A DNA stretch of 35,040 nt from a virus, in the IMG/VR virus record IMGVR_UViG_3300006737_000087, positions 1 to 35,040 of that record. One strand, written 5' to 3'. Numbering within the stretch: the first letter of the stretch is position 1; each line of letters starts with the position of its first letter. The notes beneath the pieces were generated by a model. The model worked only from the letters and a program-made list of their open reading frames with translations, ran no database searches and was not told where the DNA came from. Shown one piece after another: positions 986-31,100 of this stretch. The position numbers and the translations under genes are program-made.

Positions 986-1200
986 ATAGAGAAGAGTTAG
1001 ATAAGAAAAAAGAACAAATGATGAAACACTATGAAAACACCTTAGTTGCAGATATTTTTGGTGAGTTTTCATTTATCGATCACCTATTAATGACAATTGA
1101 TTTTCTTGAATACGAAATTAAAGATTATAGGGATAAAGAAATGCACAACAATTGGGTATTAGCAGGTGGAGTAAGTAAACCAAGAGGCGAATTAAGATGA
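982..1200 (+). CDS. Unrecognised 72-aa protein, A-rich codon use
   Basis: Starts at an ATG overlapping the previous stop by four bases (ATGA), preceded by GAAGAGGA as ribosome site. The product is charged and probably helical, with a Lys/Glu-rich first 20 residues and no cysteines. Codon use is clearly more A+T rich than the neighbours, which may mean recent acquisition. The first bases (ATGAATAGAGAAG) are repeated at 1203-1215 near the start of the next gene, so both products have a Met-Asn-Arg-Glu motif close to the N-terminus. Function unknown. Confidence 0.65.
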   Translation: MNREELDKKKEQMMKHYENTLVADIFGEFSFIDHLLMTIDFLEYEIKDYRDKEMHNNWVLAGGVSKPRGELR

Positions 1201-1652
1201 AAATGAATAGAGAAGCATTAGAGGAAGAAGCGAAGTCAATACAGGAGCGAGCGAAGATAGTACAGGCTGGACTACAGACCATGAAGAACCTACAGAAGTG
1301 TTTGGTACATGGTCACCGATTCGACTTGCATGTAGAACAAGATGAGTTTCATGAGATACTTCAGATGGGAGTGAGGTGTAGTGTATGTGGAGCAGAGACA
1401 GAACTGTTTGAAAACATTGCACTAGAGATGCCTGACGATGAGATGAAAGTCGGTCGCTTGGCTGCTTTAGGATTAGACGAAATAGATGTAGAGGAGCCTG
1501 AAGAGGAAGAGGAAGAGGAACCTGAAAAGAAACCTACTCCTTATGAATACAACCCAATGGAAAGACAAACACAAGAAGATAACGGGCCGTACAGAGTAGA
1601 CACTAGGCGGTTTATGTTCCCCGGTACACCTTACTTACCACAGGAGGAATAA
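1197..1652 (+). CDS. Unrecognised 151-aa protein: coiled coil, zinc site, acidic tail
   Basis: The ATG at 1197 overlaps the previous stop; an alternative ATG two codons in (1203) gives a Met-Asn-Arg-Glu N-terminus like the previous gene. Residues 1-35 look like a charged coiled coil. A Cys/His region follows (C35, H38, H40, H45, H52, then CSVCG near residue 61), suggesting one zinc site. Residues about 98-115 are an almost pure Glu/Pro tract. The C-terminus contains MFPGTPYL and then ends Gln-Glu-Glu-stop, which encodes the GGAGG site for the next gene. The MFPGTPYL stretch is encoded by DNA that recurs exactly, in inverted orientation, inside the giant structural gene (29867-29887). Function unknown. 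Confidence 0.75.
   Translation: MKMNREALEEEAKSIQERAKIVQAGLQTMKNLQKCLVHGHRFDLHVEQDEFHEILQMGVRCSVCGAETELFENIALEMPDDEMKVGRLAALGLDEIDVEEPEEEEEEEPEKKPTPYEYNPMERQTQEDNGPYRVDTRRFMFPGTPYLPQEE
1613..1633 (+). repeat. 21-base exact match, copy in early gene
   Basis: This stretch (TATGTTCCCCGGTACACCTTA in two parts: TATGTTCCCCGG then TACACCTTA) occurs in reverse complement at 29867-29887. In both genes it is read in the same codon phase as MFPGTPYL, counting the codons that follow. Partner of the entry below. Confidence 0.85.
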
Positions 1653-1654
1653 AT

Positions 1655-1858
1655 ATGGATATAATTGAAAGAGCAAAGCAAGATTTGAAAATGATAGTAA
1701 CCACTAGTTGGATTAACTGGTGTGTAGAAAATGGAATAGATTGGGACAAGAGTTACCCAGTTATCAGTGACTTTGGTACTAAGTTTACAGTACAAATGCC
1801 TGAGAACTTGATACCGGGTCCGTTTGCAACACCAGCAACAGCGGGTGAAGAGGAATGA
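1655..1858 (+). CDS. Unrecognised 67-aa protein
   Basis: The ATG is two bases past the preceding TAA and follows a near-consensus GGAGG at 1643-1647. The product is short, with aromatic residues in the middle and one cysteine. I see no motif or membrane segment. It ends Glu-Glu-Glu-stop; the final 15 bases (GGTGAAGAGGAATGA, 1844-1858) are identical to the end of the zinc protein at 16437-16598 and serve as ribosome site for the overlapping next gene. It looks real from spacing and ribosome sites, but its function is unknown. Confidence 0.65.
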   Translation: MDIIERAKQDLKMIVTTSWINWCVENGIDWDKSYPVISDFGTKFTVQMPENLIPGPFATPATAGEEE

Positions 1859-2124
1859 GCAGAAACATACGAGCACAGTTTGTCGATCTAGCAGAGGAAG
1901 TATTAGCAGAGGCTGACGAAGCACTGTCCGTTGATGTTATCATTGACAAAGTTGCTGCTAAAGCACTGACCAAGAAACTGAAAAGTGGACGCAAGCCTAG
2001 TAACAGATACTTACAGGAGATTTCCAACCGCACTGTCAATCATTTGTTTAGAGTAGACAAGCGGTTTGCTAAGTTTGCTCAAGAAGAGTGGCGTGTCAAC
2101 TTATGGACACTATCGGAGGAATGA
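1855..2124 (+). CDS. Small helical protein, possible winged-helix/HARE-HTH type DNA binder
   Basis: 89 residues, ATGA overlap with the previous gene. The pattern is a helix with a DLAEEVLAEA core, a turn, another hydrophobic helix (VIIDKVAAKAL), a basic segment with several Lys/Arg (about residues 42-52), and an aromatic C-terminal strand-like part ending VNLWTL. This order resembles small HARE-HTH or winged-helix domains of archaeal transcription proteins. The resemblance is only by eye and weak. It could regulate this transcription unit, but no operator is visible. It ends Ser-Glu-Glu-stop with an embedded GGAGG for the next gene. Confidence 0.65.
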   Translation: MSRNIRAQFVDLAEEVLAEADEALSVDVIIDKVAAKALTKKLKSGRKPSNRYLQEISNRTVNHLFRVDKRFAKFAQEEWRVNLWTLSEE

Positions 2125-2129
2125 ATATG
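2115..2129 (+). promoter_or_regulatory. Gene-junction cassette, copy 1
   Basis: GGAGGAATGAATATG: the last codons of one gene (Glu-Glu-stop), a strong Shine-Dalgarno (GGAGG) and the next ATG packed into 15 bases. Exact copies lie at 2243-2257 and 2338-2352, and a variant (TAA in place of TGA) at 1643-1657. It fixes the start of the next gene at 2127. Confidence 0.8.
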
Positions 2130-2252
2130 AGTAAAAAGTATATGGCTAAAAAAGGACGCAGAAGATTTGATAATAACGGATATGAAAGCCCCGTATGGAA
2201 AGCATATTGGGCTAAAATAGACGCAGAAGAAAAAGCAAAACAGGAGGAATGA
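2127..2252 (+). CDS. 41-aa basic micro-protein
   Basis: Reads ATG (2127) to TGA (2250-2252), flanked on both sides by the same GGAGGAATGAATATG cassette, which is the main reason to accept it. The first 15 residues are strongly basic (KKYMAKKGRRRF) and the rest is mixed with three aromatics before an Ala/Lys/Glu helix. No cysteine and no membrane segment. The basic N-terminus may suit nucleic-acid or acidic-protein binding, but that is a guess. A+T rich compared with the large genes. Confidence 0.6.
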   Translation: MSKKYMAKKGRRRFDNNGYESPVWKAYWAKIDAEEKAKQEE

Positions 2253-2257
2253 ATATG
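2243..2257 (+). promoter_or_regulatory. Gene-junction cassette, copy 2
   Basis: Second exact copy of GGAGGAATGAATATG; identity with copy 1 extends to 18 bases (to 2260). It provides the ribosome site and start of the 30-aa zinc peptide at 2255. Confidence 0.8.
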
Positions 2258-2347
2258 AGTTGGATTGAAGAATGGTTTCCACCCGAATGCACCAAGTGCA
2301 TGAAGTTCGGGAAGGAATGCAAGTGTAAAGAAAAAAAGGAGGAATGA
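2255..2347 (+). CDS. 30-aa cysteine micro-protein (zinc knuckle-like)
   Basis: Reads ATG (2255) to TGA (2345-2347). The whole product is one tryptophan/acidic N-terminus followed by CTKC, six residues, then CKC and a Lys/Glu tail. Four cysteines in 13 residues fit a single bound zinc ion. The perfect ribosome-binding cassette before it and another after it argue that it is translated. It is among the shortest of a series of cysteine-pair proteins in this window. Function unknown. Confidence 0.6.
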   Translation: MSWIEEWFPPECTKCMKFGKECKCKEKKEE

Positions 2348-2352
2348 ATATG
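2338..2352 (+). promoter_or_regulatory. Gene-junction cassette, copy 3
   Basis: Third exact copy of GGAGGAATGAATATG. It decides the start of the next gene: the ATG at 2350 has proper spacing from GGAGG, whereas the in-frame ATG at 2344 directly abuts it. Confidence 0.75.
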
Positions 2353-2631
2353 GAAAAGGACATTGGTAAAGCATATCCACAATACATTGTATGGCGTAAA
2401 CCTGCTACAAGCAAGCGCCACAAAGGTAAGATGGAAGCAGTGCTTACCAAGGTCTATCCACCAAGCGGTTCACAAGTGGACATCAGATTACGCAACATCA
2501 ATACAGGTGGGTTTACTAGAGAAGGTGTACGCCTGTCCTTAGAAGACGCAGTGTCTTTGAGCAAAGCACTGTCGAGACTGGTCGAACACTTAGAGGAAGA
2601 GAGGGAGAGTGAAGAGGTTGTTACTGGCTGA
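2350..2631 (+). CDS. 93-aa protein, weakly PC4/ssDNA-binding-like
   Basis: Start chosen at 2350 because of ribosome-site spacing. A basic N-terminal third (about residues 10-30) is followed by strands around VDIRLRNI, a short GGF turn, then GVRLSLEDAVSLSKAL and a Glu-rich helix. The order IR, glycine turn, REGVRLSLED, hydrophobic helix resembles PC4/YdbC-type ssDNA-binding domains (strands ending in a G-I-S-L-T-x-E helix). This is a visual resemblance only. The C-terminal Glu/Arg tract supplies the purine-rich ribosome site of the overlapping gene at 2609. Confidence 0.6.
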   Translation: MEKDIGKAYPQYIVWRKPATSKRHKGKMEAVLTKVYPPSGSQVDIRLRNINTGGFTREGVRLSLEDAVSLSKALSRLVEHLEEERESEEVVTG

Positions 2632-4084
2632 AGCAGCAATGCTGTCACGCAGACTCAAGGAGTCCTATACAAGATGGAGGCGTGAAACCGAATCAAGATC
2701 GGATGCCTTCAAAATATCAATCAAAGCACTGAAAGACAGACTCAGCGAGCGGGCTGAAGTAATTGAAGATGTGATAGATATACTCTATCCAAAGTATTCT
2801 AAATACGAGCAGCAGTTTGTTTCAGTCCTTTGGGTCAGAGACAATGTGTGTACTGAGTTGGGTATATCACCTATACACTGGAACACAGTCATGACTGGTA
2901 AGCCAATCGTTCCTCTTCTAGCAACCGAGTCTTCTGAGATAGGAGGCGAGGGCTGGACAATCAAGCAGGCACTGATGGCAATGCATCGTATAGAGGACGA
3001 GGGCGTACTACCTATGTCCCAAAACATGAATGAGGATGAGGCGCTGCTGTTTTGGTCTAGGGCACTGGGCGAACAGGAGCCAATGCCAATCGATAGGTTC
3101 TTGCAAATGCTTTCGTATCTACCTGAGTCAAACGGCATAACCAATCTACAAAGCATTCGCCACCTACTGACTACCATGAGTCCTCAAGAGGTAGCAATCA
3201 AGATACTACACAAGGAAATGATTACACCCAACAACGAACTATTCCTACAGCCGGGTCAACCATTCGTAGCACCGATCTATCAAGCATGGTCTTCGATGGT
3301 AGCGCCACCTGCTGTATACGCTGATGTGATGAAGGGGTCGAGAAGATACTTACACATCACTGAGTTCCCAAAGGGGTCATTCAGGGGCACCATCTATTCA
3401 AGAGACAGACAGATTGTAGGCAAGATGCACACATTCGATCTGCCCTTCAAGGTGGAAGCAATTGTAGAGATAGAGATGTCGGGTGACAAGATTACCAAGA
3501 TAACTGATGCCTACTCAATTGGAGAGGACTGGGGTGTTTACAAACTAAATAGGGCCGAGCGGATTTCTATGGCGAATAGTTTAGAACCAAGCGTACCAGT
3601 TGATGGTGGTAATCTGATAGAGAGCGGGTCGGACATCGGCTCTCTGTTGAACCAACTAGACGGTAGAGAGCGACTGCGTTTAGTTAAGTCCGGCCCAGTG
3701 GAGATGCGTGATAGCAACGGATGGGTTGTCATACAACAGGCGTTCCACATACACTTCTTAGTAAGTGCAATCCGTAAGGATAAGGAATTCGACACAATCC
3801 TACGCCTGTCTGTCTTAGATGGTTATGAGACATTTGAGGTAGGCGAAAGCAGAATCCCGACTGATGTAGCCCAACACATAAGAACAAGGCTGGGTCAACA
3901 GGGGGTGCTTGCGGGGAAATCTTGGATGCCTATAGACGAATATGGTTTGGTTGTAGTAGCCGAAGTAACCGGCTTTGATCTTGAGAAGATGAAAGCCACA
4001 CACTTGAATATACTATATGCAGATGATACACTGGGTTACAGTGATACATCACAACTAACAGATTTGATAGAATTAGCGGAGTGA
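2609..4084 (+). CDS. Divergent ATP-dependent DNA ligase-like protein, canonical active site not visible
   Basis: 491 residues from a GTG preceded by GAGGGAGA; it overlaps the previous gene by 23 bases. An in-frame ATG at 2639 lacks a ribosome site. Overall order resembles archaeal ATP-dependent ligases. A helical N-terminal domain contains a SPQEVAIKIL helix near residue 190 (compare the 'L-SP-EA' helix of ligase DNA-binding domains). A PGQPFVAPI stretch near residue 215 recalls the PGxPvxPMLA lead-in to the adenylation domain. The C-terminal OB-like part has VVVAEVTGF and a final DDTLGYSDTSQLTDL, recalling the 'R-DK-P-D-x-TL-EL' end of ligases. The nucleotide-binding KxDGxR motif is absent; a KGSFRG sits roughly where it would be. 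It may be an inactive or strongly altered ligase, or something else. Confidence 0.4.
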   Translation: MKRLLLAEAAMLSRRLKESYTRWRRETESRSDAFKISIKALKDRLSERAEVIEDVIDILYPKYSKYEQQFVSVLWVRDNVCTELGISPIHWNTVMTGKPIVPLLATESSEIGGEGWTIKQALMAMHRIEDEGVLPMSQNMNEDEALLFWSRALGEQEPMPIDRFLQMLSYLPESNGITNLQSIRHLLTTMSPQEVAIKILHKEMITPNNELFLQPGQPFVAPIYQAWSSMVAPPAVYADVMKGSRRYLHITEFPKGSFRGTIYSRDRQIVGKMHTFDLPFKVEAIVEIEMSGDKITKITDAYSIGEDWGVYKLNRAERISMANSLEPSVPVDGGNLIESGSDIGSLLNQLDGRERLRLVKSGPVEMRDSNGWVVIQQAFHIHFLVSAIRKDKEFDTILRLSVLDGYETFEVGESRIPTDVAQHIRTRLGQQGVLAGKSWMPIDEYGLVVVAEVTGFDLEKMKATHLNILYADDTLGYSDTSQLTDLIELAE

Positions 4085-4407
4085 GAAAAATGAAGAGATA
4101 TGAAATGAAAGGGAGTGAAGAATTAGAAAGACTCAAAGAACAGGTCAAGAAGTTGAAAGAGGAAACTGAATACTTGAAAAAGCAGAAAAAATGGGAGCAT
4201 GAGGTGTTAATGTACATGGAGGATGAGGATTTCTCATATGATGGGTTCCTGTATTATGTGGATAATGCAGGTTGGTGTAATGAATGTGATTCCGTGTCAG
4301 TAACCGAACAGCATTTACAAGGGGGTAGAACCCTTGAAAACCCTAATGCTGATGGTGAATATGAATGCTATTATTGTTGGCAAAAAAATGAGGATGAGAA
4401 AGTATGA
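4081..4407 (+). CDS. Coiled-coil zinc-binding protein, 108 aa
   Basis: The GTG start at 4081 overlaps the previous stop (GTGA); an ATG at 4090 is an alternative. Residues about 10-45 form an uninterrupted Lys/Glu/Leu coiled coil. Residues 60-100 carry CNEC and, some 30 residues later, CYYC, a standard zinc-ribbon spacing, with aromatics around. A+T-rich codon use compared with the ligase-like gene upstream. A dimeric nucleic-acid- or protein-binding factor is plausible; function unknown. Confidence 0.7.
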   Translation: MRKMKRYEMKGSEELERLKEQVKKLKEETEYLKKQKKWEHEVLMYMEDEDFSYDGFLYYVDNAGWCNECDSVSVTEQHLQGGRTLENPNADGEYECYYCWQKNEDEKV

Positions 4408-16598: not shown

Positions 16599-17149
16599 AA
16601 GGCAAGCACTTTGTCGTGTTCGCCTATGGTAGTGAATTTTCACATATGGTGAATGCCCCCGAAGTGGTAATTGTCACTAGTGATGATTACTTATCGGTAT
16701 ACACTAGTCACCGATCTTATATCAATTCAAAGCCAATTTCTTATTCAAAAATACAAGACGAAATGGCCTATATCGTAGATAATGGAGGTATATTGGTCCT
16801 AAAGAATACTCAGCCCTATGGCCTGAATACTTCTTGGACAGGTATAGACAAAGGTAGTCCTAGTGATATGGTTGACCATATTGAAAGGCATATCATGGAT
16901 ATAGATTTAGAGATAAAGCGTATTTCGGAACAGCAATTAAATCTAAACGATTTAGATTTGGAGTATTCCCTGCATACAGAAATGTATGCCCCTATTTGGC
17001 AGAAGGGCAGTGAACTGTCAATAATTAAGCACTGCATCGATGATGCGAATATCATACTCACCCTAGTACAGCGCTGTAGTAGCGCAGGTGATATAAGGGT
17101 GAGACTAAGAGACAAGGGAGTACCAAAGGAGTATGATGTAGAATGGTAA
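16595..17149 (+). CDS. Unrecognised 184-aa protein
   Basis: ATGA overlap with the zinc protein. The N-terminal half is strand-rich (HFVVFAYGSEF, EVVIVTSDDYLSVYTS, GGILVLKN), the C-terminal half helical (DMVDHIERHIMDIDLEIKRISEQQL, then a long amphipathic helix around IIKHCIDDANIILTLVQRC). No metal cluster or catalytic motif recognised. It overlaps the chaperonin start by seven bases, so the two are probably co-translated; a chaperonin cofactor or client is an idea only. Confidence 0.65.
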   Translation: MKGKHFVVFAYGSEFSHMVNAPEVVIVTSDDYLSVYTSHRSYINSKPISYSKIQDEMAYIVDNGGILVLKNTQPYGLNTSWTGIDKGSPSDMVDHIERHIMDIDLEIKRISEQQLNLNDLDLEYSLHTEMYAPIWQKGSELSIIKHCIDDANIILTLVQRCSSAGDIRVRLRDKGVPKEYDVEW

Positions 17150-18642
17150 ACAACGGAGATCAACAACAAACAGCACAGAGCCTAAACATTCGTGCTGCGA
17201 AAGCAATCGCAGACACGGTTAGAAGTACGCTAGGTCCAGCGGGAATGGACAAGATGATGGTCGATGGAGGTGGCAATGTCATTGTAACAAATGACGGCGC
17301 TACTATCCTTCAATCACTAGATGTATCACATCCGGGCGCTAAGATGATAATTGAAGCGGCTAACACTCAAGAGAGTATGTGTTACGATGGTACGACCAGC
17401 ACAGTAGTATTAGCAGGGCAACTGCTGAGCAATACTGAATCACTATTTGAAAAGGGCCTACACCCTAATGTTATCTGTAAAGGTTACAGACAAGCAGCAC
17501 AGTGGGCTACTGAACACATTCCAAGCCTAGCAGAATCTGCCAAGCCTCACTTGAGGCATGTAGCGCAGACATCGATTACAGGTAAGTCATTGGAATCCGC
17601 TATGGAACATGTCAGTGAACTATGTGTTAAGGCGGCAGAATTGGCAGGTGGCGATTTTGAGCGCATCCGTGTCCTGTGTCAGCCCGGTGGAGGCTTAGAA
17701 GATTCGACATGCTTCTCAGGTGTAGTATTACACAAGGAATTCATGTTACCTGCTATGCCTCTCACACCTGAAGGCAAGGTACTACTAATCAACACTGGAC
17801 TCAGTAACAAAAAGAATGAGGACAATGTACAAGTGTCACTTGGATCTGCTGCTGAGTATCAACAATACCAGCAGACTACAACTAGGGATATTTGGGTCAA
17901 GAAAGCAGAGTCTATCATCGAGCGCCTACCTAATGGTGGTGCAGTATTGGTCAGAGACCATGTAAACGAGGTAGTTGCGGCTACTTTGGCTAAGGCCAAT
18001 ATCAGCGTAGTTCAGCGTTTACCTGAAAGTGATATATCTGCTCTAGGGTTACTACTAAACACCTCTGCGGCTCACACTGTTGAGGACTTAGGGGATGCAG
18101 TAGATGCAGACATCGAGTGTACTACTATCGGTGACATGAAGTATGTCGTCGTCAAGGGCACAGGTGAAGTCACTACTCTTATCCTAAGAGGTGCTACTAA
18201 GCAAACACTAGATGAGACCGAGCGTGGATTTGAAGATGCTCTCGGAGTCGTATGTGTAGCCTATAACACCCTCAAGGTCGTACCGGGCGGCGGTGCCGCA
18301 TATCTCAACTCTGCTATCAATCTAAGAAGCAGGGCAGCAGAGATTGGTGGTCGTGCTCAGATGGCAATTGATGCCTTTGCAGATGCATTGGAATCGATAC
18401 CTTCTACCATTGCAGAGAATGCAGGTCACGACCCACTAGACATCGTACTGGCGCTCAGGAATGAGCACTTGTCGGGTAACATCGATTATGGGCCTAACAT
18501 CGAAGATGGAGGCACCTGCTCAATGAAGGATGCCAATGTATGGGAACCTCTCAGCCTAGTCAAGCAGGCGATTCAGTCTGCTAGCGAAGTCACTATCAGT
18601 ATACTACGCATCGATGACATCATCGGTAAGCGTGGCGAGTGA
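17143..18642 (+). CDS. Group II chaperonin (thermosome/CCT-like Hsp60 subunit)
   Basis: 499 residues; archaeal thermosome subunits have about 540-550, so it is short, mainly at the termini (no long C-terminal Gly-rich tail) and in the apical region. Signature parts: RSTLGPAGMDKMMVD (27-41), TNDGATIL (49-56), YDGTTSTVVLAG (81-92, the ATP site GDGTTT), VVPGGGAAYLNSA in place of the usual GGGAxE, then QMAIDAFADALESIPSTIAENAGHDPLD and the final ILRIDDIIGK. The ATP-hydrolysis Asp of DGTT is kept. It would form a closed folding cage with a built-in lid. As a viral gene it may fold the very large structural protein on the other strand. Last gene of the forward unit. Confidence 0.95.
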   Translation: MVNNGDQQQTAQSLNIRAAKAIADTVRSTLGPAGMDKMMVDGGGNVIVTNDGATILQSLDVSHPGAKMIIEAANTQESMCYDGTTSTVVLAGQLLSNTESLFEKGLHPNVICKGYRQAAQWATEHIPSLAESAKPHLRHVAQTSITGKSLESAMEHVSELCVKAAELAGGDFERIRVLCQPGGGLEDSTCFSGVVLHKEFMLPAMPLTPEGKVLLINTGLSNKKNEDNVQVSLGSAAEYQQYQQTTTRDIWVKKAESIIERLPNGGAVLVRDHVNEVVAATLAKANISVVQRLPESDISALGLLLNTSAAHTVEDLGDAVDADIECTTIGDMKYVVVKGTGEVTTLILRGATKQTLDETERGFEDALGVVCVAYNTLKVVPGGGAAYLNSAINLRSRAAEIGGRAQMAIDAFADALESIPSTIAENAGHDPLDIVLALRNEHLSGNIDYGPNIEDGGTCSMKDANVWEPLSLVKQAIQSASEVTISILRIDDIIGKRGE

Positions 18643-28100: not shown

Positions 28101-31100
28101 CTCCAGCCCATCCTACTGCACCAATAGGCTTAGTTCGATCTACTGCATCGATTAAACCGTTATAGTGTACTTGTGTCATGTGGTCACGATCAGTTACACC
28201 ACTGTCGTTATTATGACGATGAGTACCTGCCTTAGTCCAAACATATACTTTGAAACTGTTAGTTACAGCAACATGCCTATTATTTGTAGGGTCAATGACA
28301 TTTGAAGAGGCATCAAGGACTAGTTCTAACCTAGCATCATTTGAAGAGCCACCTTGTTGAATAACAACTACCTCGCCACTGTTATAACCTGAACCGGAAG
28401 CGGTTATTGTCGCACCTGTAACTTGACCTGAGCCATTTACACTTGTTATTTGTATAGTTAACCCAGTACCTGAACCACCAGTCGTAGCCAAACCGGATGC
28501 TGCAGAATAGCCACTAGTTCCACTAGTTCCTCCTTGGACTGTTACACTCTTTGGTGTGGTCGCAGCCGGACCTTTACCAAGTGTAAAGGTAGTATTAGGA
28601 GCACTAACAGAATAACCAACATAAGGTGCGTAACCGGAAGTTGTACCATCACTTACTCTTAACCAACCATAAGGTGGTAATGTCGTAGAAGTACTAGTTG
28701 CCACTAATGACGCAGCAGTTGCACTGGCTGGGTCGAGGCCGTTCTGAGCAGTGTAAGATGCTACGGCTAATTCTACCCAACCGTATCTGTCTTGCTTGTG
28801 AGCGTTCTGCATAGACGGTAAAAATGTACCACCTATTGCTTTGAGCGGGTCTTTACCGGGGAATGTGTTGATAGATGCACTGATAACTGCCCCTAACTCC
28901 TCTGCGTTCTGTACACGAGTAGCGTCTATCAGTACAACATTTTCGTCACTTACTTGGTCTTCAGGATCGCCATCAGTATCATATTTAGCCAAATATGCTT
29001 TAGCCAAAAGTCCACAAGGCCTGAATGCAGATACATTGTGTTTATTAGCGCTACCTGTGGCTAACCTACCATTCTCTACTGGGTGCTTTGGATTGATATT
29101 GACATGATTATCAAGGAAGTGCCCACCGGGATGATAGCCTCCATCCATGTGCCAAATTGCAAACGCCTTTTTACTTGCGGGATATGTTGCACTCTCTAAT
29201 GCACCACCAGCCAAGTTAGTAAATACATGGTTAAATGGATGTGCCGTAGGAGGCAGAGTTAAACTACCTATAGTAAAGTCAGAACCTTCGTAATAAAATG
29301 CTTTGTTGTACCCTTGCGCAAATGAATCACCACTACTAGTATGAGCAGCGACACTTGGGAATCCCTTTGTTGGTTCCCAATTCATATCGTAATTGAATGC
29401 ACTTAGTCTATTCTTTTGAAAGAAACTGGTCCTTGGTAAGTGAGCAGATGCAGCCAAAGTTCTATTGAAACCACTAACAAAATCGTCACCGTTGGTTAAT
29501 TGATTAGGTAAGAATGACGGGGAGGTACTTGTTGTATAAATTGGGACAGCGCTGTAGCCATTACCTGTAGTCACTATATTCGACCCTTGGGGTTCAAAGG
29601 TAGCACTGTTGTGAGGGAAGGCTTGGCCGGGACCAAACACCATGTAGATAGTTTGGTCAGCAGTGTTTCCAGCAGCGCTATACCTAGCGTGAGGATGACC
29701 AAATCGAAGTATAATTGGACTCGGTATGTTTGTTGATACTGTATTTGTACCATCTGTATATGTTGTACCAGTAGCGTGATTGTTTGCACCCTTAGCCATA
29801 TCGAAAGGTAAAATACCATCTTGGTTAAACATAGGCGGGTTATTTTTACCCCTGTGGTTATCCAAATAAGGTGTACCGGGGAACATAGCCAGCATTGCAT
29901 TCGTATCAAGAAGTGCGTAAGCGCCAGCAACTTCGCCTATGTTTTGTAGACCAGCAGATCCGGTTGGCCCACCTGCGTAAGGATGTGTATAGAAATCACC
30001 GTAATCGTTTTGAGTACCGTCGTTAACATCCATAACTACACCACTGAACCCACCACCGAAGTAAAGTGGCACCCAGTGGTCAGGGCTGTCTCTGCCTCCT
30101 CTAAAGTAGAGGAAAGGGCTGGACATCTTGCTTCCAGCCCTACGAATACCATCTGTTTTCATGCCATTCTTGACATCGCCATTGCGCATGAGGACTTCAT
30201 CATCACTGTCATGGCAGAAAGAAGCAAAGTTAGTACTAACACCTGTAGCCGCTCCGTAAGTAAGTTTGGTTTCAACTGCTGTTCCGGGCGTACTGGCAAC
30301 CTCTGCGTATTCTTCTGAACCCCACCAAATTGTAAACCGCTCGCCCCAAGCCTGTGCATGGTCTGAACCCGGTACACATATTGAATACAAGTAAGTGTTA
30401 CTTGCGGTTGTTATTAGAGTACCATCATCAGTGGTTTTCAAAATCATAGGGCTGTCTACCTTTGGTATAATGTGGTCGCCCGCTACGCCTGTGTAGTTAT
30501 CTCCACGAAGGTTTCTTTGCCATATCGATATATCAACAGGGTTATTCTGATTATCAACTAGAATGGGAGTAGCAGTGTTTGCATTAGTACCCTTGTAACG
30601 AGTAGTAATGTGTAAAAGAGTTTCAGGAATATAACCTACATCTAGGCGTACACCCGCATCTCTTTCAGCATCGCTTAATCCACCAGTGTGTTTACTTGAT
30701 ACTACAGCGTCACTACTTGCACCTTCGACCAATCCCCAATCCTTACTTCTTGAAACTTCAAACAACTTACTAAGAGGTACCTTGTTTTTACTACTGGCCT
30801 TAACTCGTATAGCAGTAGGGCTAACTCCCCATTCGCCTAATGTTTTACCATCAGGTGCAAACATACCTGTGCAATCGAAACTTGTTGCTGATATGCTGTC
30901 GTCACTAGGGTCAGGCATTGTCATAGCGAACTCAACTGCCGCTGCAATCACTTCGTCAGTGAGTACGCTTGTGAAGTTGATTCTTGGACTAATTAACATA
31001 CCTTCGTTAGTAGTTAGTGCACGACCACCTGTGCAACCATAGAAGTAGTGCTTGTTAGATGCACCAGTATCACCATCGTGGTCGTAATGAGATCGGCTGG

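Follow-up and report, generated by a model that had tools for sequence, protein, structure and literature searches.

Why should a small early gene and a giant gene of the same virus, 28 kb apart and on opposite strands, carry the same stretch of DNA and, within it, the same eight-residue peptide? We addressed this question in a stretch of viral DNA of 35,040 nucleotides (the window). Nucleotides 1613–1633 of its (+) strand are the exact reverse complement of nucleotides 29867–29887, a 21-nt identity that extends to 23 of 24 matching positions. Translation of the open reading frames (ORFs) yields MFPGTPYL in the gene frame from both copies, as residues 140–147 of the early protein and residues 1698–1705 of the giant protein, and ACCACAGG recurs downstream at both sites, offset by a 5-nt gap (Table 1). 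The exact inverted match, the in-frame peptide and the downstream sequence at differing distances, all listed in a preliminary description of the locus, were thereby confirmed. As explanations, that description had offered a short peptide recognized by one partner, gene conversion or a recombination seam that allows inversion.

The window encodes archaeal-type replication proteins recognized by Pfam (family B polymerase, clamp loader, ERCC4 nuclease and, with a weak score of E 7e-4, primase large subunit), together with a thermosome (Cpn60/TCP-1) gene at positions 17143–18642 (E 8e-130). The polymerase is best covered by records of haloarchaeal tailed viruses, at ~25% identity. Judged by this combination of replication genes and thermosome, the window would belong to a magrovirus-like archaeal tailed virus; a possible host would be Poseidoniales (MGII). 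A scan of genome contigs for a host found no cellular contig with a homologue of the giant protein, and the GenBank phage records gave no match to the DNA or to the early and giant proteins.

Table 1. Positions of the features discussed (window coordinates unless a contig is named)
Feature	Position	Strand	Basis and remarks
Early gene, 151 aa; C-terminus ...DTRRFMFPGTPYLPQEE	1197..1652	(+)	ORF, translation, homologue alignment
Putative acquired patch: exact match of 21 nt, then downstream similarity that reaches the next gene's start codon	1613..1655	(+)	Gapped local alignment
Shine-Dalgarno/start cassette GGAGGAATAAATATGGAT	1643..1660	(+)	Repeat families D1 and D2; further copies at 2115, 2243, 2338
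Next gene (MDIIERAKQDLKM..., 67 aa)	1655..1858	(+)	ORF table; L113 and L115 sequences
Giant gene, 4281 aa	22132..34977	(-)	MFPGTPYL at residue 1698; ORF table
Probable template, giant-gene segment TATGTTCCCCGGTACACCTTATTTGGATAACCACAGGGGTAAAAATA coding AMFPGTPYLDNHRGKN	29841..29887	(-), read from 29887 down	Best of the giant alleles compared
Dam-family methylase PF05869	G001:C1:3455-3922 (L135, L126:3395-3958); G002:C1:1201-1647 (L136); G004:C1:17517-17969 (L137)		

The shared 21 nt exceed the codon-shuffle null

The 21-nt inverted pair is the longest repeat of the window, in which the longest direct exact repeat measures 18 nt. When codons were shuffled within genes, the longest repeat did not exceed 19 nt in 400 trials; by extrapolation from this null, a repeat of at least 21 nt would arise with P ~5e-4 per window. 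The earlier judgment that a chance match is improbable holds against this null, but has to be tempered by a constraint on codon choice. CCWGG is absent from the window and from nearly all of its relatives, so that Pro before Gly is restricted to CCC or CCG, as found in 99% of 879 codons. Part of the DNA identity between the two copies can be ascribed to this avoidance: the exact DNA spelling of FPGTP has a probability of 0.005 under raw codon usage, which we estimate to rise to ~0.03 once CCWGG avoidance forces the Pro codon. In 96% of 71 giant genes, the Pro of the motif is encoded by CCC, though CCC is the rarest Pro codon. This preference had at first suggested a hidden nucleic-acid element, but CCWGG avoidance at all Pro-Gly pairs explains it.

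These figures bear on the possibility that an unrelated tail came to spell MFPGTPYL by chance, aided by a ban under which Pro-Gly must be written CCSGG. With many windows scanned, a ~5e-4 event is expected somewhere; a P value of that size, taken alone, would not survive the scanning of thousands of windows. In addition, the ACAGGAGGAAT part of the similarity is a common cassette. Coincidence would nevertheless have to account for a downstream flank that matches too, for a best fit to the window's own giant allele among the alleles compared and for a site that falls at a lineage-specific replacement of a C-terminus (all described below), for which we estimate a combined probability of the order of 1e-6. 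We therefore consider a chance origin unlikely; given the additional flank evidence, the two copies likely share an origin. A search for further stretches of at least 19 nt common to early regions and giant genes gave no second case.

The motif is old in the giant protein and new in the early protein

MFPGTPYL is present in 18 of 18 close homologues of the giant protein, which had been found by other peptides without use of the motif, and is absent from a giant homologue at 38% identity (L027). Going by this distribution, the motif has long belonged to the giant protein. Among 2.9 million viral contigs scanned, 82 loci can encode MFPGTPY at the DNA level; nearly all of these belong to giant homologues and a handful to unrelated sequences, and the sole early-type protein lies in a twin contig of the window. 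The giant protein gave one weak PHROG match, to head closure (E 1.6e-4) and away from the motif, and no Pfam family was found for it. An hmmsearch of the giant segment against PDB sequences returned nothing, and the AlphaFold2 model of the segment (mean pLDDT 40) was too poor for use.

The early protein, for which neither Pfam nor PHROGs holds a family, consists of a helix plus beta N-terminal domain (residues about 1–97) and an acidic disordered tail, with residues 105–151 at pLDDT under 50 in the AlphaFold2 model. MFPGTPYL is present in none of its nine other homologues in our collection (G002–G007, G010, G011 and G013). Most of these proteins end ...VPSDIMERVQRRYDGGTN, and a remote pair (G010/G011) ends ...GAYRVDVSGIIGKKE(E/ATE). 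Homology can be traced to about DNGPYRVDTRR, while FMFPGTPYLPQEE lacks a counterpart in the homologues; in the window and its twin, the last ~13 residues of the early protein are replaced by this sequence. Where compared, the twin contig shares 99.99% identity with the window, and it carries the identical junction, which makes a chimeric assembly unlikely. The preliminary description had held that relatives with the motif in only one of the two proteins would point to coincidence. Such relatives exist and speak against a shared function; coincidence does not follow from them, as the DNA similarity extends past the motif.

A patch of ~43 nt matches the virus's own giant gene

In a gapped local alignment of the early region with the giant gene, the similarity begins exactly at position 1613 and runs to ~1655 (~43 nt), in the order 21-nt match, 5-nt gap, ACCACAGG and A-rich end; the 37 nt upstream of 1613 show no similarity to the giant gene. 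From this patch come the early protein's new C-terminus, its stop codon and AGGAGG as Shine-Dalgarno sequence. The patch scores 55 against the window's own giant allele and at most 48 against the other alleles compared. The downstream flank reaches a score that is matched by only 0.05% of in-frame giant-gene positions (21, compared with a best of 16 among 139 other Shine-Dalgarno cassette candidates of the virus group). The left edge of the patch shows no clear microhomology, and the right edge falls in the A-rich start cassette. As the right half overlaps this conserved Shine-Dalgarno/start cassette, part of the similarity may be convergent. Viewed as a templated insertion, the locus offers a template identified in the same genome and a sharp left edge at the breakpoint of a relocated gene.

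The new tail sits at a gene-shuffling junction

In close relatives, the early gene is immediately followed by a 661-aa gene, assigned as helicase-like by PHROGs, with whose start codon it overlaps. The window lineage has this helicase gene ~3.4 kb upstream of the early gene, behind a different gene. The early gene of the window is followed instead by the MDIIERAKQDLKM gene, which in relatives is located upstream of the early gene. The start of this downstream gene seems to be hybrid, combining two gene starts that are separate in relatives, with the start coming from one relative gene (AGGAGGAATAAGTATGGATATA) and the body from another. Because the neighbours changed and the joints share a Shine-Dalgarno/start cassette, we place the new tail of the early gene at a shuffling junction. 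The cassette GGAGGAATRAATATG recurs at the gene joints of the early region (window 1643–2355). The overlap of its Shine-Dalgarno sequence with the stop codons of many small early genes explains why their products terminate in EE or EEE.

A sister contig pairs the same giant gene with an unpatched early protein

A sister contig, G007, matches the window at 99.93% identity across 29,984 bases (window 5057–35040, G007:9186–39169), giant gene included; its giant region is 99.97% identical to that of the window, and its early protein is devoid of the motif. The identity ends at the start of the clamp-loader gene, and the early region of G007 is a different mosaic, 73–94% similar. As read from the alignment, the difference between the two genomes is a recent swap of the early module. 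The early region of G007 contains seven ACGT sites, all at 1026–4165, and neither the window nor the shared part contains any; this distribution would point to G007 as the recombinant and to the window lineage as the older combination.

The pairing in G007 weighs on the idea, already contained in the preliminary description, that both proteins display one peptide to the same partner. The early protein would have gained the invariant loop of the giant protein, a common partner (a capsid/tail assembly factor, a protease or a host protein) would bind MFPGTPYL, and the DNA identity would be a side effect of recent copying, with the copy retained by selection. The loop is indeed invariant in close giant homologues, the motif lies near the end of a C-terminal tail predicted to be disordered, a typical site for short linear motifs, and the patch is in frame with the tail intact in both known sequences. 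A random patch would land in frame and on the sense strand about once in six cases, which slightly favours selection on the peptide. As with short linear motifs of partner proteins, a conserved protein and a disordered tail have an identical 8-residue peptide in common; unlike such motifs, the peptide is not conserved in the early-protein family. All diverged early homologues lack it, so that mimicry has no comparative support, and the two near-identical sequences that possess it are too few to gauge purifying selection. Because G007 pairs a nearly identical giant protein with an unpatched early protein, an essential partnership of the two peptides is unlikely, and peptide mimicry in general appears rather improbable to us. 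A specific version, in which the early protein captured the loop of its own giant protein through a 43-nt copy and employs this loop as decoy or timing signal, is doubtful; if true, a viral protein would mimic another protein of the same virus, the mimic having been born in one recombination event.

An inverted repeat could also allow the intervening segment to flip, and the two copies are in fact inverted and 28 kb apart. In all records in which both genes could be placed, however, the early and giant genes are oppositely oriented; no isomer was seen, and a family-wide arrangement cannot be explained by a 21-nt repeat that one lineage alone possesses. We consider a role of the repeat as an inversion seam extremely improbable.

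A templated patch as the probable source of the new ending

Based on these results, we suggest, with a probability of about 0.68, that the tail of the early gene is a recombination scar, left when genes were shuffled and a patch of ~43 nt was templated by the giant gene of the same virus. In the ancestor of the window lineage, the early gene moved from its place next to the helicase gene to a position ~3.4 kb away, beside the MDIIERAKQD gene; in this scenario, its broken 3' end would have been joined via the patch, taken from the opposite strand 28 kb away and copied by illegitimate or template-switching synthesis. The patch would have been in frame by luck, adding FMFPGTPYL, and a 5-nt deletion with small changes would have given rise to the stop codon and to the next gene's Shine-Dalgarno sequence. 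As one disordered tail replaced another variable tail, the change would be tolerated and the new ending need not have a function. The direction of copying follows from the age of the motif in the giant protein and its novelty in the early protein; the template switch, its coincidence in time with the move and the dispensability of the peptide are the presumed parts of the scenario. The scar occurs in one lineage, the window and its twin, as an event without replicate. Gene conversion, as proposed earlier, would be apt for a one-way, very short copy from the giant to the early gene at the relocation junction, but not in the sense of a continuing conversion.

Purged palindromes and a GATC ladder

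The codon analysis exposed a genome-wide signal that is much stronger than the 21-nt match. The window contains no AGCT, ACGT, CCWGG or CGCG, compared with 171, 90, 62 and 36 expected strand matches, respectively. Among the 70 family loci of at least 9 kb, AGCT and CCWGG are lacking in all, and ACGT, CGCG, GATC, CTAG, TCGA and GTAC in some lineages only. This purging looks like an imprint left by restriction systems of hosts.

Across the family, GATC is either absent or kept as an evenly spaced ladder. The window has 47 GATC sites between 1078 and 34995, with a mean gap of 737, a coefficient of variation (CV) of 0.39 and a maximum gap of 1337; none of 20,000 random placements was as regular, and 288 control 5-mers all had a CV of at least 0.68. 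Two relatives contain 70 sites in 55 kb (G002, L144–L146; CV 0.46, maximum gap 1913) and 119 sites in 109 kb (G004, L138–L143; CV 0.51, maximum gap 2460), with most other tetramers at a CV near 1 in this comparison; in G017, a further relative with GATC sites, the spacing is less regular (CV about 0.6). Between relatives that are ~80–85% identical in the giant protein, the sites are partly common and partly shifted, and the spacing persists.

Three GATC-ladder genomes (G001, G002 and G004) encode a Dam-family adenine methylase (Table 1). No PF05869 match was found in seven records of ~91–110 kb (G010, G011 and G018–G022), whose sampled loci are GATC-free, or in the other GATC-bearing records, which are shorter fragments. 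The same early regions encode further N6/N4 DNA methylases (PF01555; G001:C1:2200-2853, L126:2137-2874, and G004:C1:24845-25540, L131), of which the G001 enzyme has MboIIA as its nearest solved relative. The viral Dam could possibly serve in methyl-GATC strand marking or in protection. One published study puts the reach of methyl-directed mismatch repair in E. coli at up to ~1 kb from a GATC (PMC5014478); by analogy, GATC gaps capped near 1.3–2.5 kb would fit a mismatch-repair-like use. Homologues of MutH, DpnII or MutS were not found in the GATC-ladder genomes.

Discussion

Tailed phages are known for mosaic gene shuffling at conserved gene-boundary cassettes. The locus described here resembles such mosaics in its relocated genes, new neighbours, shared Shine-Dalgarno/start joints and early-module swap, and differs from them in that the joint also bears a stretch of an unrelated gene. 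That stretch has its closest parallel in templated insertions, which are known, mostly at 5–34 bp, from repaired DNA breaks in yeast (PMC11724301). Templated insertion and template switching at breaks (PMC11724301; for MMBIR, PMC2621351 and PMC8421209) likewise leave a short inverted patch from the same genome at a rearrangement junction. The present case, known from sequence alone, concerns an archaeal-type virus instead of a eukaryotic cell, lacks clear microhomology and has a patch that was turned into coding sequence.

If our preferred reading, a scar copied from the giant gene, is correct, the junction would be a clean natural case of a virus gene gaining a new ending through relocation combined with a patch from elsewhere in its genome. 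An exact match between two genes, in peptide as well as in DNA, thus need not imply a shared function.
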